Positions 2,984-51,876 of a stretch of 64,000 nt of DNA are shown one piece after another. The notes under the pieces are model-generated. The model was not told where the DNA came from, made no database searches, and saw only the letters and a program-made list of their open reading frames with translations. Both the position numbers and the translations under genes were made by a program. Location of the stretch: assembly GCA_019637355.1 (NCBI GenBank), contig JAHBVT010000001.1, positions 2,387,192-2,451,191 on the forward strand, read 5' to 3'. The stretch is from Gemmatimonadaceae bacterium (GTDB taxonomy: Bacteria > Gemmatimonadota > Gemmatimonadetes > Gemmatimonadales > Gemmatimonadaceae). Every line of letters begins with the position of its first letter. Positions within the stretch are counted from its first letter, which is position 1.

Positions 2984-2993
2984 ACTCGACGGA

Positions 2994-3066
2994 AGACGGA
3001 TGACGGACGCTTGATGGGGGCGCTGAGCGAAGCTCGGCGCCCCCATTTGGCATCCGTCATCCGTCT
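2994..3066. repeat. Heptad-repeat inverted element with terminator stem
   Basis: Outer arms of 14 nt (2994-3007 and 3053-3066) are perfect inverted copies of the AGACGGATGACGGA heptad pattern. Inside them, 3014-3028 pairs with 3032-3046 as a 15-bp GC-rich stem with a GAA loop and one G-U pair. It sits between the convergent 51- and 21-residue genes and probably ends transcription of the 51-residue gene. It is one member of the heptad family found throughout the window. Confidence 0.8.
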
Positions 3067-14495: not shown

Positions 14496-15524
14496 GTGCG
14501 CGCACTCGTCAAGGAAGCCCCATCAGCGGGATTCACGCTCAAGGACGTCCCGATCCCCTCCATCCGCGACGATGAGGTGCTGATTCGCGTCCGCCGAGCC
14601 GGCGTCTGCGGCACGGACGTGCATATCCACGAGTGGGACGCCTGGGCGCAGGGGCGGTGCAAGCCGCCGTTCGTGGTCGGGCACGAGTTCGCCGGCGAAG
14701 TGGAGAAGGTCGGAGCGCTGGTGACCGACGTGAAGGTTGGCGACCGCGTGACCGCCGAGGGCCACATCGTATGCGGGATGTGCCATCTCTGCCGCACCGG
14801 CAACGCGCACGTGTGCCCGAACACCAAGATCATCGGCGTGGACCGCGACGGCGCCTTCGCCGACTACATCGCGATGCCGGCCACCAACGTGTGGCAGCTG
14901 GACGCGAACATCCCGTTCGAGATCGGCGGCATCCACGATCCGATGGGCAACGCCTTCCACACGGCGCTGCACGGCACCGAGCTCTCAGGCAAGACGGTGC
15001 TGGTCACGGGCTGCGGCCCGATCGGCATCTTCGCCGTTGGCATCGCGAAGGCGGCCGGTGCATCGCACATCGTGGCGAGCGACGTGAACCCCAAGCGCTT
15101 GGGGCTCGCGACGCGGATGGGCGCGCACAGCGCGGTGCATCCCAAGGACGCCGACGCAACCGTGCAGCAAGCTACGCACGGGCTGGGCGTCGACGTCGTA
15201 CTCGAGATGAGCGGCGTGCCTGCGGCGATCCACCAGGCGTTCAAGCTCGTGCGCGTCGGCGGCCGCGTGCAGATGCTCGGCATCCCCGCCAAGCCGATGG
15301 ACGTGGACTTCGCGACGGAAGTCATCTTCAAGGGCATCACCGTGTACGGCGTCGTCGGCCGGCGGATGTACGACACCTGGATCCAGATGACGCAGTTCCT
15401 GCGCGCGGGGCAATTCGACCCGACACCGGTGATCACGCATCGGTTCAAGCTGGAAGATCACGCCGCTGCCATCGCCGCGATCAAGAGCGGAGAGGCGGGG
15501 AAGGTGGTATTCGAAATCAGCTGA
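14496..15524 (+). CDS. tdh: L-threonine 3-dehydrogenase
   Basis: Zinc- and NAD-dependent oxidation of L-threonine to 2-amino-3-ketobutyrate; 342 residues, the family length (E. coli 341). Catalytic-zinc residues lie in AGVCGTDVHIHEWD and GHEFAGEV; the structural-zinc cysteines are in CGMCHLCRTGNAHVC. The NAD-binding glycine motif is TGCGPIGIFAVGIAKAAGA. The start is a GTG preceded by a pyrimidine-rich stretch without a Shine-Dalgarno. The next gene, kbl, uses the product, so the pair makes the threonine-to-glycine plus acetyl-CoA route. A heptad inverted repeat separates the two genes. Confidence 0.94.
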   Translation: MRALVKEAPSAGFTLKDVPIPSIRDDEVLIRVRRAGVCGTDVHIHEWDAWAQGRCKPPFVVGHEFAGEVEKVGALVTDVKVGDRVTAEGHIVCGMCHLCRTGNAHVCPNTKIIGVDRDGAFADYIAMPATNVWQLDANIPFEIGGIHDPMGNAFHTALHGTELSGKTVLVTGCGPIGIFAVGIAKAAGASHIVASDVNPKRLGLATRMGAHSAVHPKDADATVQQATHGLGVDVVLEMSGVPAAIHQAFKLVRVGGRVQMLGIPAKPMDVDFATEVIFKGITVYGVVGRRMYDTWIQMTQFLRAGQFDPTPVITHRFKLEDHAAAIAAIKSGEAGKVVFEIS

Positions 15525-15530
15525 GTTTTC

Positions 15531-15594
15531 GACGGATGACGGATGACGGATGCCAACGACATCCGCCGTTCGCATCCGTCATCCGTCATCCGTC
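15531..15594. repeat. Heptad-repeat inverted element, 23-bp perfect arms
   Basis: Left arm 15531-15553 (three GACGGAT units and a GC end) and right arm 15572-15594 are exact reverse complements; the loop is 18 nt. It lies between tdh and kbl, with the right arm ending 11 nt before the kbl ATG. In mRNA it would form a very stable hairpin just before the start codon. It may set the ratio of the two products or act as an RNA-processing site. Confidence 0.9.
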
Positions 15595-15605
15595 CAGTCC
15601 TTACA

Positions 15606-16808
15606 ATGAATAAGAACTTCGTCGCCGAGCTTCAGGCCGGCATCGACCAACTCAAGTCCGCCGGCACCTACAAGAAACTCAACCATCTGGCGTCGCCCCA
15701 GTCCGCGCGCGTGCAGATGGAAGGCCGCGGCGAGGTGCTCATTCTCTCGTCCAACAACTACCTCGGGCTCTGTGATGAGCCGAGCGTGGTGCAGGCGGGC
15801 ATCGACGGGCTGAAGCAGTTCGGCGCGGGTACGGGATCGGTGCGCTTCATCTGCGGCACCTTCACGGTGCACCGCGAGCTGGAGACGGCGCTGGCGCGCT
15901 TCGTCGGCACGGAGGCCTCGATGAGCTACGTCTCGGCGTGGAACGCCAACGAAGGGCTTACCGCGAGCATCGTGCAGGAAGGTGACTTCGTCATCTCCGA
16001 TGCGCTGAACCACGCGTCGATCATCGACTCGATCCGCCTGGCGAAGGCGATCACGAAGTGCACGACCGCCGTGTACAAGCATTCGGACCTCGACGACCTG
16101 GTCGAGAAGCTCTCGGCGCACAAGGCAGCCAAGCGACGGCTCATCTGGACCGACGGCGTGTTCTCGATGGAAGGCAGCATCGCCAAGCTGCCGCAGCTGC
16201 TGCAGATCGCCAAGGATCACGACGCGATCCTGATTATGGACGACTCGCACGCCACCGGCGTGCTCGGCAAGACGGGGCGCGGCACGGCCGAGCACTTCGG
16301 CGTGCTCGGCGAGGTCGACGTGATCACCAGCACGCTGGGCAAGGCGCTGGGCGGCGCTGCGGGTGGCTTCGTCGCCGGTCCGGCGGCGCTCTGCGACACG
16401 CTGACGCAGCGCTCGCGGCCGCAGCTGTTCTCCAACGCCCTGCCGCCGACCGTGGCGGCGAGCGCGCTGGCGTCGGTGGAGTTCATCGAGAAGCACCCGG
16501 AGCGCGTGCAGTTGCTGCGCGACAACACGGCATTCTTCCGCAGCGTCATCATCGAGGCCGGCTTCAACCCGCTCGAAGGCGACACACCGATCGTGCCGAT
16601 CATCATCGGCGAGACGGCCGATGCCATCAAGATGAGCGAGATGCTGCTCGACGAAGGCATCTTCGTCACCGGCTTCGGCTTCCCGGTGGTGCCGCAGGGC
16701 ACGGCGCGCCTGCGCTGCCAGATCTCGGCGAGTCACAGCCGTGCGGACCTCGAGTTCGCGGTCTCGGCGATCCGTCGGGTGGGGCTGAAGACGGGAGTGA
16801 TCAAGTGA
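15606..16808 (+). CDS. kbl: Glycine C-acetyltransferase (2-amino-3-ketobutyrate CoA ligase)
   Basis: PLP enzyme of the alpha-oxoamine synthase family that splits 2-amino-3-ketobutyrate with CoA into glycine and acetyl-CoA. It has 400 residues from the ATG at 15606, against 398 in E. coli. The PLP lysine is Lys246 in TLGKALGGAAGGF; MDDSHATGVLGKTGRGT and SSNNYLGL are family signatures. An in-frame upstream start (15543) would only translate the heptad repeat, so the internal ATG is chosen. No Shine-Dalgarno is evident; the pyrimidine arm of the repeat occupies the leader. Confidence 0.94.
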   Translation: MNKNFVAELQAGIDQLKSAGTYKKLNHLASPQSARVQMEGRGEVLILSSNNYLGLCDEPSVVQAGIDGLKQFGAGTGSVRFICGTFTVHRELETALARFVGTEASMSYVSAWNANEGLTASIVQEGDFVISDALNHASIIDSIRLAKAITKCTTAVYKHSDLDDLVEKLSAHKAAKRRLIWTDGVFSMEGSIAKLPQLLQIAKDHDAILIMDDSHATGVLGKTGRGTAEHFGVLGEVDVITSTLGKALGGAAGGFVAGPAALCDTLTQRSRPQLFSNALPPTVAASALASVEFIEKHPERVQLLRDNTAFFRSVIIEAGFNPLEGDTPIVPIIIGETADAIKMSEMLLDEGIFVTGFGFPVVPQGTARLRCQISASHSRADLEFAVSAIRRVGLKTGVIK

Positions 16809-16809
16809 T

Positions 16810-17793
16810 TTGGGGACGGATGACGGATGGTCGATTCGTGCGAGCGAGGGAGTCAGTGCGCGGCCGAGGCGGGGCGTTGCCCGTTTCCTCCGAATCTGCA
16901 CGTTCGTGTTGTTCGCATCCGTCATCCGTCATCCGTCCCCACTCGAGGCCCAGTCCCCCACGCTCCCACCTGTCGTCAGCATCGACTGGCTGAGCGCCGA
17001 ACTCGCCCGCCCCGCCCTCGTCGTCCTGCAGCTGGGCAGCGATTTGTCCTTCCGCGCGACGCACGTGCCGGCGGCGCAGCGGCTGGACTTCGATGCCGTC
17101 GTGCTCGCGCCGCAGATGGAAGGCGGACTACGGATGGAGCTGCCGGCGCCGGATCGGCTCGAGGCGGGCCTGCGCGCGGTCGGCGTTCGTGAAGACTCAC
17201 GCGTCGTAATCGTCTTCGATACGCCGCAGGCGTTCACGCGCGCGAGCCGGGCGTTCTTCACGTTGGAGTGGGCCGGGATGCGGGGCCGCGTGGCGGTGCT
17301 GGACGGTGGCTTGCCGGCCTGGCGCGCGGCGTCGAAGGCGCTGAGCAGCGGCGGCGCGCTGCAGGTGGCCGCGGGCGACCTGCGTGTGCGGCCCGACGCC
17401 GATCGGCTCGCGACGCGCGAGGCGGTGCGGGCTTCGGCCGATGGGCGCGGACGCCGCTTGGTCGATGCGCGGACGCCGGAGTTCTACGAGAACCGCCGCG
17501 ACAACGGGATGCCGCGCGGCGGTCACATCGCCTCGGCGGTCAACCTGCCGTTCAACACCGCAGTGGGCAGCGATGGGCGGCTCAAGCCGATGGCCGAGCT
17601 GGAGCAGATGGTCGCGGCCGCGGGCATCAGCTCGGACGACGCGCTCACCACCTACTGCCACATCGGACTGCAGGCCTCGTGGATGTACCTGGCGCTGCGG
17701 CATCTCGGACGGGACGTCGCGCTGTATGACGGGTCGTTCGATGAGTGGAGCCGCGACGCGACGTTGCCGGTGGCGTTGCTCGGATCGCCGTAG
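16810..17793 (+). CDS. Secreted two-domain rhodanese (sulfurtransferase)
   Basis: Thiosulfate/mercaptopyruvate sulfurtransferase type with two rhodanese domains. The C-terminal one carries the active cysteine, Cys283, in TTYCHIGLQASW; the N-terminal one lacks it. The N-terminus looks like a signal peptide: basic RPRRGVARF, a hydrophobic stretch, then PLEAQSPT with a likely cut after LEA. The only in-frame start before the signal is the TTG at 16810; no ATG or GTG occurs until the hydrophobic core. The heptad repeat at 16812-16940 lies wholly inside this frame, and its right arm encodes the end of the signal segment (ASVIRHPSP). The start is therefore uncertain. Confidence 0.8.
   Translation: MGTDDGWSIRASEGVSARPRRGVARFLRICTFVLFASVIRHPSPLEAQSPTLPPVVSIDWLSAELARPALVVLQLGSDLSFRATHVPAAQRLDFDAVVLAPQMEGGLRMELPAPDRLEAGLRAVGVREDSRVVIVFDTPQAFTRASRAFFTLEWAGMRGRVAVLDGGLPAWRAASKALSSGGALQVAAGDLRVRPDADRLATREAVRASADGRGRRLVDARTPEFYENRRDNGMPRGGHIASAVNLPFNTAVGSDGRLKPMAELEQMVAAAGISSDDALTTYCHIGLQASWMYLALRHLGRDVALYDGSFDEWSRDATLPVALLGSP
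16812..16940. repeat. Heptad-repeat inverted element inside a coding region
   Basis: 18-nt arms at 16812-16829 and 16923-16940 are exact reverse complements, 93 nt apart. They are the same GACGGAT heptads as at 15531. The left arm follows the kbl stop. The right arm is in frame with the rhodanese and encodes part of its signal peptide region. Confidence 0.85.
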
Positions 17794-17815: not shown

Positions 17816-17863
17816 AAGACGGAAGGGGCGGTGCACAAGGATGTGCACCGCCCCTTCCGTCTT
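17816..17863. terminator. 21-bp perfect hairpin between convergent genes
   Basis: Arms 17816-17836 and 17843-17863 are perfect reverse complements around the loop AAGGAT. The outer part is the GACGGAA heptad; the inner part is a GC-rich stem. Extra heptads continue to about 17870. It lies between the convergent rhodanese and NYN-LOTUS genes and should stop transcription from both sides, though no strong T-tract is present. Confidence 0.75.
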
Positions 17864-17878
17864 CCGTCTTGCTCCGTC

Positions 17879-21296: not shown

Positions 21297-21391
21297 TTCC
21301 GTCTCCCGTCACATCTCCCGTCTCCCGACCGTCTCGCATCTCCCCTCTCCCTGCCGTCACCCTCCTCCCTTCTCCCGTCTCCCACTCCCCA
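21297..21391. repeat. Pyrimidine-rich heptad tract before the NtrX-like gene
   Basis: About 95 nt made almost wholly of CTCCCGTCTCCC-like units. The motif CCGTCACCCTCCTCCC is shared with the tract at 51797-51876 before lgt. It ends 1-2 nt before the ATG at 21392 and leaves no Shine-Dalgarno. It resembles a one-armed, diverged form of the GACGGAD heptad family (reverse complement GACGGGAGA). Confidence 0.7.
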
Positions 21392-26742: not shown

Positions 26743-26772
26743 GATCGAAGACGGAAGACGGAGGACGGAAGG
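26743..26772. repeat. Single heptad-repeat arm before ilvE
   Basis: GAAGACGGAAGACGGAGG-type heptads on the plus strand, so the minus-strand ilvE leader is the pyrimidine form (CCGTCCTCCGTCTTCCGTC). No partner arm is seen nearby. It touches the proposed TTG start of ilvE. It is the same placement as in yajC, yebC, fmt and kbl. Confidence 0.8.
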
Positions 26773-41782: not shown

Positions 41783-41889
41783 GACGGAGGACGGAAGATT
41801 GAAGCGGCCGCGGGGGGACAAGTCCTCTCGCGGCCGTTAGATTCTCTGTGGTCTCCGGAGCCCTCGGCTCCCACCATCCGTCCTCCGTC
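41783..41889. repeat. Heptad-repeat element enclosing a terminator, before yebC
   Basis: 13-nt arms GACGGAGGACGGA (41783-41795) and its exact reverse complement (41877-41889). Within them CGGCCGCG pairs with CGCGGCCG (41805-41812 with 41829-41836), extended by G-U pairs and followed by T-rich TTAGATTCTCT. This hairpin likely ends the barrel transcript. The right arm leads to the yebC ATG at 41903 through CCCCAGT. Confidence 0.85.
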
Positions 41890-41902
41890 ATCCGTCCCCA
41901 GT

Positions 41903-45975: not shown

Positions 45976-45996
45976 TTAGATTTCCCAGTTGCCACT

Positions 45997-46020
45997 CCTT
46001 CCGTCTTCAGTCTTCCGTCC
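45997..46020. repeat. Single heptad arm before yajC
   Basis: CCTTCCGTCTTCAGTCTTCCGTCC, the pyrimidine form of three heptads, ends 2 nt before the yajC ATG. No inverted partner is seen within 50 nt. Another case of the heptad leader without a Shine-Dalgarno. Confidence 0.8.
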
Positions 46021-46384: not shown

Positions 46385-46972
46385 ATGGCCGTCCTCCCGA
46401 TCACCGTCCTCGGCAGCCCCGTCCTGCGCGAAGTCACCACGCCGGTGACGGAGGTGACGGACGAGCTGCGCAGGCTCGCCGCCGATATGCTCGAGACGAT
46501 GCGCGCCGCCGACGGCGTCGGCCTCGCCGCGCCGCAGGTCGGCCGCAGCGAGCGCCTGTGCGTCGTCGAGGTCGGCGAGGTAACGGCGGTGCTGTTCAAC
46601 CCCGAGATCATCGCGCGCGAGGGGAAGATCAAGTGGGAGGAAGGTTGCCTCTCGATCCCCGACGTGTTCGGTTGGGTGGAGCGCTCGGCTTACGTGAAGG
46701 TCCGCGCGCTGGGTCTCGATGGACAGCCCTTTGAACTCGAAGGCCGCGAGCTGCTTGCGGTGTGCATCCAGCACGAGCTCGACCACTTGGACGGCAAGCT
46801 CTTCCTCGACCATCTCAGCTTCTTGAACCGCCGCCGCGCGATGAGTGCCTGGGACGAGGAGAAGGTGAAGTATCCGAAGTTGGTCAGGGTGCTTCCGGCG
46901 AAGGCGCCGGGACGGAAGACTGAAGACGAAAGGAGTGCGGCCGCAGGCGCGGAGCATCACGACGCGTTATAG
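46385..46972 (+). CDS. def: Peptide deformylase with repeat-derived C-terminal tail
   Basis: Removes formyl from N-terminal Met; 195 residues against about 170. Three family motifs are present: GVGLAAPQ, EGCLS and HELDH (metal Cys and two His). The last 22 residues or so (GRKTEDERSAAAGAEHHDAL) do not look like deformylase; their first part is translated from a heptad repeat arm (GGGACGGAAGAC), so the reading frame appears to have been extended by the element. fmt follows, the usual partner. Confidence 0.93.
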   Translation: MAVLPITVLGSPVLREVTTPVTEVTDELRRLAADMLETMRAADGVGLAAPQVGRSERLCVVEVGEVTAVLFNPEIIAREGKIKWEEGCLSIPDVFGWVERSAYVKVRALGLDGQPFELEGRELLAVCIQHELDHLDGKLFLDHLSFLNRRRAMSAWDEEKVKYPKLVRVLPAKAPGRKTEDERSAAAGAEHHDAL

Positions 46973-47062
46973 GTGGTCGGTGGGCGCTGGAACCGAGAGC
47001 GCCCACCGTGTTGTATCCTTTCCAGCAGTTGCCGTTGGCTTCCGTCCTCCGTCTTCCGTCCC
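46909..47062. repeat. Heptad-repeat element enclosing a terminator, def-fmt junction
   Basis: 12-nt arms GGGACGGAAGAC (46909-46920) and GTCTTCCGTCCC (47051-47062), exact reverse complements. Inside, CGGTGGGCGCT (46978-46988) pairs with AGCGCCCACCG (46998-47008), loop 9 nt, followed by TGTTGTATCCTTTCC. The left arm is coding (the end of def); the right arm lies 11 nt before the fmt GTG. Same plan as 41783-41889. Confidence 0.85.
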
Positions 47063-50657: not shown

Positions 50658-51707
50658 ATGCGCATCCTCGGCATCGAGACGTCCTGCGACGAGACGTCGG
50701 CCGCCGTGCTCAGCGGCAACGCCGCCGCGCCACAGCTGGACTCGCTGGTGATCCTCTCACAGGACGTGCACAGCGTGTTCGGCGGCGTGGTGCCCGAGAT
50801 CGCCTCGCGCGAGCACCTCACGGCCATCGTGCCGGTGACGGAGCGCGCGCTGGCCGACGCCGGCACGACACTCGCCGACGTCGACGCCATCGCCGTCACG
50901 CACGCGCCAGGGCTCGTCGGTGCGCTGCTGGTGGGCGTGAGCTACGCCAAGGCCTTGGGCGCGGCGGCTGGCAAGCCGGTGATCGGCGTGCATCATATGG
51001 AAGGGCACCTCTTCGCGACGGCGCTGGAGCATCCCGACGCCACGCCGCCCTTCACGGCGCTCTTGGTCTCCGGCGGACACACCTTGCTGCTCGACGTCGC
51101 TGAATGGGGCGCGTACCGCCTCTTGGGCCGCACCCGCGACGACGCCGCCGGCGAGGCCTTCGACAAAGCCGCCAAGCTGCTCGGCCTGCCATATCCCGGC
51201 GGCCGCCACCTCGAAGCCCTCGCGCGCGACGGCGACCCCAAGCGCCATCGCTTCACCAAGCCGATGCTCAACGCCGGCCAGAAGCCCGGCGACGCCGATT
51301 ACTACGACGTCTCGTTCAGCGGACTCAAGACCGCCGTACTGCTCGCCACGCAGCAGGCCTCGGACCTCGAGGCCGAGAAGCCGCACATCGCGCGCGGGTT
51401 CCAGGACGCACTCATCGGCACGCTGGTCGCCAAGACCATCCGCGCCGCCAAGGCGCAGCGCCGCAAGAAGATCGTGCTCGGCGGCGGCGTCGCCTGCAAC
51501 GCCGCCGTGGTGGACGCGATGCGCAGCACAGCCAAAGAACTCGGCGCCGAAGTCTTCGCTCCCACACCGCGCCTCGCCACCGACAACGCCGCAATGATCG
51601 CCGCCGCGGGCTTGTTTCGGTTCGCACGCGGCGAACGCTCGGATGCGACACTGAACGCACACAGTGCGCTACCAATCCCAGGGGTACGCTCAATGACGGA
51701 TGACTGA
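50658..51707 (+). CDS. tsaD: tRNA N6-threonylcarbamoyladenosine transferase TsaD
   Basis: 349 residues. ASKHA fold with N-terminal ILGIETSCDETSAAVL, metal-binding HHMEGHLFA, SGGHTLLL, ASP/Gly loop GRTRDDAAGEAFDKAAKLLGLPYPGG and C-terminal GGGVACN. It transfers threonylcarbamoyl to A37 of ANN-decoding tRNAs with TsaB/TsaE (not in window). The final residues SMTDD are encoded by the start of the heptad repeat at 51694, another coding end that runs into the element. Confidence 0.95.
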   Translation: MRILGIETSCDETSAAVLSGNAAAPQLDSLVILSQDVHSVFGGVVPEIASREHLTAIVPVTERALADAGTTLADVDAIAVTHAPGLVGALLVGVSYAKALGAAAGKPVIGVHHMEGHLFATALEHPDATPPFTALLVSGGHTLLLDVAEWGAYRLLGRTRDDAAGEAFDKAAKLLGLPYPGGRHLEALARDGDPKRHRFTKPMLNAGQKPGDADYYDVSFSGLKTAVLLATQQASDLEAEKPHIARGFQDALIGTLVAKTIRAAKAQRRKKIVLGGGVACNAAVVDAMRSTAKELGAEVFAPTPRLATDNAAMIAAAGLFRFARGERSDATLNAHSALPIPGVRSMTDD

Positions 51708-51744
51708 AGACGGATGACGGATGACGGAAGACGGAGGACGGAAG
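51694..51744. repeat. Purine-form heptad array at the tsaD 3' end
   Basis: Seven or so tandem heptads of GACGGAT, GACGGAA and GACGGAG type. The first overlaps the tsaD stop codon region. A pyrimidine tract at 51797-51876 follows but pairs only imperfectly with it. Between them (51745-51796) nothing else is recognised. Confidence 0.8.
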
Positions 51745-51796: not shown

Positions 51797-51876
51797 GATT
51801 CGCCTCCCCTCTCCCAGCCCTCTCTCCTCTCCCGTCTCCCCGCCGTCACCCCCCTCCCCCCTCCCATCTCCCGCTG
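51797..51876. repeat. Pyrimidine-rich tract before lgt
   Basis: About 80 nt of CTCCC-type units. It shares CCGTCACCC and CTCCC-repeat wording with 21297-21391 before the NtrX-like gene, and ends directly at the lgt ATG. No Shine-Dalgarno is present. It looks like a related second family of heptad leaders. Confidence 0.65.

Follow-up and report, generated by a model that had tools for sequence, protein, structure and literature searches.

Heptameric gene-edge repeats in a Gemmatimonadaceae genome: arrays in the same gaps, with different words, in sister species

The window, a stretch of 64,000 nucleotides from the 3.15-Mb genome of a Gemmatimonadaceae bacterium (G000), carries tandem arrays of the 7-nt unit GACGGAD at the edges of tdh-, kbl- and yajC-like genes, of yebC, def, fmt and tsaD, and of several other genes. 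A preliminary description, made from the letters alone, had placed such arrays at nine sites. All nine were recovered to within a few bases, and they resolve into the following features:

2988-3008, plus strand: left arm GACGGAA GACGGAT GACGGAC, 4 nt 3' of a called plus-strand gene, in a convergent gap
3016-3044, no strand assigned: gap-specific G+C hairpin, terminator-like, between the arms; the whole element folds at -64.1 kcal/mol
3052-3065, minus strand: right arm, two GACGGAT units
15531-15551, plus strand: left arm, three GACGGAT units, 6 nt past the stop codon of the tdh-like gene (14496-15524)
15574-15594, minus strand: right arm, three GACGGAT units, 11 nt upstream of the start of the kbl-like gene (15606-16808)
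16815-16828, plus strand: left arm, two GACGGAT units, 6 nt past the kbl stop codon
16917-16937, minus strand: right arm, three GACGGAT units, within the part of the rhodanese-like gene after kbl that encodes the signal peptide
17818-17868, no strand assigned: one left unit, a 20-bp stem and two minus-strand GACGGAA units, in a convergent gap
26750-26770, plus strand: single array GACGGAA GACGGAG GACGGAA, antisense, 7 nt upstream of a minus-strand gene start
41783-41796, plus strand: left arm GACGGAG GACGGAA, 6 nt past a stop codon
41805-41846, no strand assigned: terminator-like hairpin and TTAGATT promoter-like sequence
41876-41896, minus strand: right arm GACGGAT GACGGAG GACGGAT, 6 nt before the yebC start
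45999-46019, minus strand: single array GACGGAA GACTGAA GACGGAA, 3 nt before a yajC-like start
46911-46930, plus strand: degenerate left arm, overlapping the end of def
47040-47060, minus strand: right arm GACGGAA GACGGAG GACGGAA, 13 nt before the fmt start
51695-51743, plus strand: seven-unit array, overlapping the tsaD stop codon

The element at 15531-15594 forms an exact, perfect 23-bp stem with a 22-nt loop between the arrays (-52.5 kcal/mol as RNA, z -10.65). Exact reverse complements had been proposed for five or six of the sites. The arms are exact here, at 16815/16937 and at 17818/17868, where the left arm is one unit, and nearly so at 2988/3065 (13/14 in register), but they are imperfect at 41783/41896 (13/14) and 46911/47060, and the arrays at 26750, 45999 and 51695 have one detectable arm each. 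Single arms do not fold alone (-0.8 to 0 kcal/mol); paired arms do. The sites had also been taken as intergenic, which holds for most of the family, but several arrays run into coding sequence, at the ends of tsaD (51695) and def (46911) and in the signal-peptide region at 16917-16937. Within 16810-17793 of the window the right arm is apparently translated as part of the signal peptide; in the sister species G011 the signal peptide at this place is an ordinary one and the gap is almost absent. The middle unit of the array at 45999-46019 sits in sequence shared with G011 and with another relative, G002.

GACGGAD arrays are confirmed as a dispersed, genome-wide family of mainly intergenic elements. 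Tandem units are far from rare: exact 14-mers number 404 in G000 (211 forward and 193 reverse), against none on either strand for the reversed-pattern control, and the window alone holds 28 tandem matches with up to one mismatch, compared with 0.44 expected in shuffles. We studied their anatomy in 864 kb of G000, comprising 40 spaced 20-kb stretches and the window. This sample contains 66 arrays forming 41 elements. Exactly three units, the mode, are present in 46 of the 66 arrays, and 56 arrays are wholly intergenic (the intergenic share of the sequence is 11%). Simple convergent pairs (GACGGA...TCCGTC) make up 18 elements, and the reverse arrangement none; one detectable array only is found in 20 of the 41. 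The seventh base is D in nearly all units, as had been noted, but C also occurs (6 of ~205 units, each in the third, innermost position), and single GACGGAN units show no D bias at this base. The inner end of the arrays is fixed: it is always G, followed by C in most T-type arms (GATGC). A doubled 21-nt arm occurs at L054 5205. A search of the window against Rfam at the gathering threshold gave no match. The earlier verdict that this is neither a CRISPR array nor a coding repeat stands: unspaced, dispersed 7-nt units are unlike CRISPR repeats of ~20-50 nt with unique spacers of similar size, and unit length and dispersion likewise argue against a coding repeat.

The arrays are placed with respect to genes. 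When measured on genes called with a dicodon model, whose predicted starts may be displaced by some codons, 43 of 61 arrays begin no more than 15 nt from a gene edge (~8.6 expected). The distance past a stop codon is often exactly 6 or 0 nt, with 9 of 33 arrays at 6 nt. The purine-rich strand points away from the nearer gene edge, into the gap (51:10 in G000; 41:2 in relatives, that is 41 of 43 clear cases), so that the messenger would present GACGGAD just past stop codons and its reverse complement just ahead of start codons. In G000, arrays are present in 29 of the 186 tandem gaps, in 7 of the 30 convergent ones and in 2 of the 87 divergent ones, and divergent gaps differ from all others (36/216; p = 2e-4). 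The same contrast is seen for start edges, which carry an array in 17 of 186 tandem but 1 of 174 divergent cases in G000, and in 15 of 241 versus 0 of 272 in relatives. The start-proximal array thus depends on a gene reading into the gap and not on the leader as such. We therefore rejected a leader-only function of the C/U-rich right arm, which is missing from start edges in divergent gaps.

Heptads of a similar kind have been described by Rehm et al. 2015 (PMC4692102) in Xanthomonas (GGGAATC) and Nostoc (GGGGA(C/T)T). They are present as hundreds of intergenic units, are context-conserved, lie in sense just past stop codons and antisense just ahead of start codons, and are under-represented between divergent genes; the Xanthomonas heptad forms 70-75 convergent inverted pairs (PMC4692102). 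GACGGAD resembles them in its 7-nt tandem units at many, mainly intergenic sites, in its sense and antisense placement close to the gene edge, in its convergent pairs and in its scarcity in divergent gaps. The arm-stem-arm build, which the preliminary description did not recognize from any known system, has thus been reported before for the Xanthomonas repeats (PMC4692102). The same authors favoured G-quadruplexes, found four units to be preferred and did not settle the function (PMC4692102). GACGGAD differs in coming from another phylum, in containing GG only and in its mode of three units. Because it has no three-G runs and no four-unit preference, we file it with gene-edge heptads and not with G-quadruplex repeats, and regard a G-quadruplex as unsupported. 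These comparisons show that GACGGAD arrays are lineage-specific heptameric gene-edge repeats of the Xanthomonas/Nostoc kind, with a new heptad and in another phylum. The Beggiatoaceae heptamer TAACTGA (MacGregor 2015; PMC4679880) is likewise intergenic and forms short arrays close to start codons, but it has a different sequence and occurs almost only as direct repeats (169 sets, one indirect).

The family had further been called REP-like. REP/REPIN elements are dispersed and extragenic, form inverted pairs with short loops and are associated with RAYT transposases. GACGGAD elements share the dispersal, the extragenic location and the inverted pairs with short loops, but their arms are tandem and not palindromic. 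The label does not hold in the strict sense: single arms are unfolded, about half of the elements are one-armed, and a RAYT-type Y1 transposase (PF01797) was found in 0 of 14 genomes of the genus, with a control search positive in 5 of 14 known genomes. REP transposition driven by RAYT was rejected on the last ground. The uptake sequences (DUS) of Neisseriaceae are short single motifs that occur as species dialects and as inverted pairs at terminators and are also spread through coding DNA. GACGGAD-type arrays likewise have their own wording in each species at the same sites, and inverted pairs associated with terminators; the tandem units and the largely intergenic location are not shared.

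We compared G000 with nine sister species. The relatives are mostly draft genomes, and G002 is a bin that is 71% complete and may be mixed. The closest relative among the nine is G011 (85% amino-acid identity), and the tree is ((G000,G011),G007),G015. Exact GACGGAD pairs are patchy in the genus: in addition to the 404 in G000 there are 237 in G007, 36 in G015, 28 in G002 and 4 in G011; the remaining genomes have one at most. The gaps themselves are shared. Between tdh and kbl, G007 carries GACGGAA, G011 GAGTTGG-type units, G003 GTGGGAG, G009 GATGGGA and G014 GGATGAA/GGATGGA, and G015 has an octamer array with the core CACAGAG. The def-fmt gap holds arrays in G014, G016 and G007, each species with its own word on both arms, and the yebC gap has a right arm in G007, G003 and G016 and a weaker one in G010 and G014. 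Where a non-divergent gap of G000 has arrays, relatives have them as well in 16 of 40 comparisons; for gaps that are empty in G000 the figure is 0 of 25 (p = 2e-4). These counts were made in a single syntenic block and lack phylogenetic independence. Two small G002 contigs, C172 and C243, contain GACGGAT arrays, while the orthologous gaps of G002 carry other words. The comparison shows turnover of the word at fixed gaps between sister species. The comparison itself (same gaps, different heptads, matching arms) is the part of this work that looks new; the earlier Xanthomonas study did not offer such a contrast.

The sister species also bear on the composition of the elements. Arms of G000 (GACGGAT) and of G011 (GTTGTGA) bracket the same terminator-like hairpin at L045 5453, and in the yebC gap of G011 the terminator-like hairpin and the promoter are retained and the arrays absent. 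Because the inner hairpin survives armless, it is not part of a modular cassette: the arm-stem-arm module of the preliminary description is rejected, and its inner hairpins are resident terminator-like or promoter sequences.

Because arms cannot be aligned between species, we used an arm-swap permutation instead of a MAFFT covariation count. In relatives with varied words, left and right arms match within a gap with a summed score of 167.5, compared with a permutation mean of 90.1 and a maximum of 160 (0 of 5000 permutations reached the observed value). Within G000, seventh bases and odd units agree more within elements than between them (7 of 2000 shuffles), as at L049 6790, where GACGGAA GACTGAA GACGGAA is present in both arms. 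The preliminary description had expected a folded element to keep its pairing as heptads change; in the relatives the heptads differ, yet the arms still pair. This suggests that pairing, and not spelling, may be the conserved property. Arm matching fits selection for a stem and is equally expected from functionless copying of one arm from the other, two causes that it does not separate.

Neither pure insertion nor pure rewriting explains how all sites came to be occupied. Occupied and empty gaps are nearly equal in length at yebC (126 versus 127 nt) and queA-yajC (47 versus 49 nt). In the latter the array resembles a rewriting of the shared leader, and at 45976 an array seemingly grows over a pre-existing CGTCTTCAGTC with length almost unchanged. 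Elsewhere, the occupied gap is longer by 50-100 nt (for example 99 versus 47 nt at L049 14026). A clean insertion with target-site duplication was not seen by eye at L049 14026 or after kbl.

Our preferred reading, to which we assign a probability of about 0.35, is that the conserved property is arm-to-arm pairing in read-through RNA, with the stem acting on the next start codon. In a transcript from the upstream gene, the stop-proximal arm would pair with the start-proximal arm, and the stem of ~21-23 bp would end next to the start codon of the downstream gene. Ribosomes that finish translating the upstream gene would open this stem (coupling), and without them the downstream start would be masked in read-through RNA (insulation); in RNA begun at the gap's own promoter the downstream start would stay free. 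Where the gap is convergent, a two-way terminator or 3'-end structure would be lengthened by the same stem. Each species would owe its own heptad to copying from site to site within its genome. Placement, polarity, the contrast between tandem and divergent gaps, arm matching, shared gap occupancy and the folding of paired arms are all in favour of this mechanism. The main point against it are the one-armed elements, nearly half of the total, which cannot form a stem. In addition, both arms may rarely lie in one RNA in gaps that hold a terminator-like hairpin and a promoter.

Nearly as likely as pairing in read-through RNA is a neutral or selfish copying process. Its neutral form, itself possible at well short of even odds, is the main rival: short seeds at gene edges would expand by 7-nt replication slippage, template switching across the gap would make the inverted copy, and turnover would be so quick that every species comes to have a heptad of its own. 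Such seeds are visible in coding ends of tdh (GAGGTG in G003, GTGTCAG in G001), odd variants are exactly common to both arms, and the doubled arm at L054 5205 and the array seemingly grown over CGTCTTCAGTC fit the same process. Period 7 is moreover enriched in nearly every genome sampled, and periods 5, 6, 8 and 10 mostly are not; codon multiples and a period-8 family in G015 are the exceptions. The strict polarity and the avoidance of divergent gaps remain unexplained by slippage, as does the recurrence of a single heptad at hundreds of sites, where the inner end is fixed as GATGC. The uniform heptad and conserved inner end would instead be expected of a mobile or selfish MITE- or REPIN-like repeat, in which a trans-acting enzyme copies a 23-nt arm, (GACGGAT)3GC, to new gene edges, either singly or as an inverted pair. 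The patchy distribution in the genus, the longer occupied sites and a second family, CACAGAGNN, in patchy phylum-wide bursts point the same way, but we consider such a repeat unlikely given that the Y1 transposase was found in none of the 14 genomes, internal sequence is not shared, clear target-site duplications are lacking and some occupied sites are close to empty-site length.

Readings in which the heptad sequence itself is recognized fare worse. Arrays could be the sites of a binding protein (nucleoid, ribbon-helix-helix type, or CsrA-like on GGA), since three units are the mode and 21 bp correspond to two turns of B-DNA; other heptad arrays are known binding sites, such as those of the omega protein of pSM19035. 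Several heptads coexist per genome, and the heptad differs between sister species at the same gap, so that a binding protein would need repeated change; we regard it as improbable. Most improbable is a molecular drive like that of Neisseria uptake sequences, which the species-specific wording and the terminator-associated inverted pairs recall, but for which the tandem arrays, their intergenic location and the unbiased seventh base of single units would be out of character. The genus amounts to a natural experiment, in which gaps, architecture and arm pairing are the same and words differ. Such a pattern speaks against a function that reads the sequence, and against G-quadruplexes as a general explanation of such repeats; it favours pairing or copying. 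Since tandem and divergent start edges differ, one can test directly which of the two applies. Among the longer simple repeats of bacteria, heptamers have for years been recorded as the most over-represented, with no function assigned to them. At less than even odds, they might represent a widespread bacterial gene-edge bracket that keeps a period of ~7, polarity and arm pairing while the word is rewritten in place between sister species, and that would serve as a sequence-independent read-through-RNA switch or insulator on the next start.

Additional array families accompany GACGGAD. G000 also holds GRGGGAG-type and GACKTGA-type families, the latter forming gene-edge heptad arrays of the same polarity (L054 2566-2624 and 3158-3192). 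GAGGGGA/GATGGGA-like heptads, which resemble the main family of sister species, are found at 21297-21391 and 51819-51876 of the window, at L043 12689-12817 and at L040 256. A period-9 family of inverted CACAGAGNN arrays lies mostly in convergent gaps of G000 (L036 16714-16837, L041 13594-13714, L047 18496-18786, L049 6204-6325 and L060 5062-5181); it is present in 14 of 298 genomes of the phylum, with up to 105 exact matches per genome, and G015 carries its core with period 8 at tdh-kbl. About eight GACGGTG-like units occur in a related lake Gemmatimonadetes genome (L073 4707-4769). Other Gemmatimonadota contain period-7 or period-8 arrays, mostly with inverted partners (GGAACGC, GGGATGC, AATGCGG, GGGACGG and others). 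Among ~1.2 Mb surveyed from other phyla, arrays were found at two Firmicutes loci, which suggests that the phenomenon crosses phyla. The Firmicutes contigs (L078 8126 and 12595; L110 2961 and 20764) carry GCGGAAT and ACGAAGC-like heptads, with their reverse-complement partners several kb apart.
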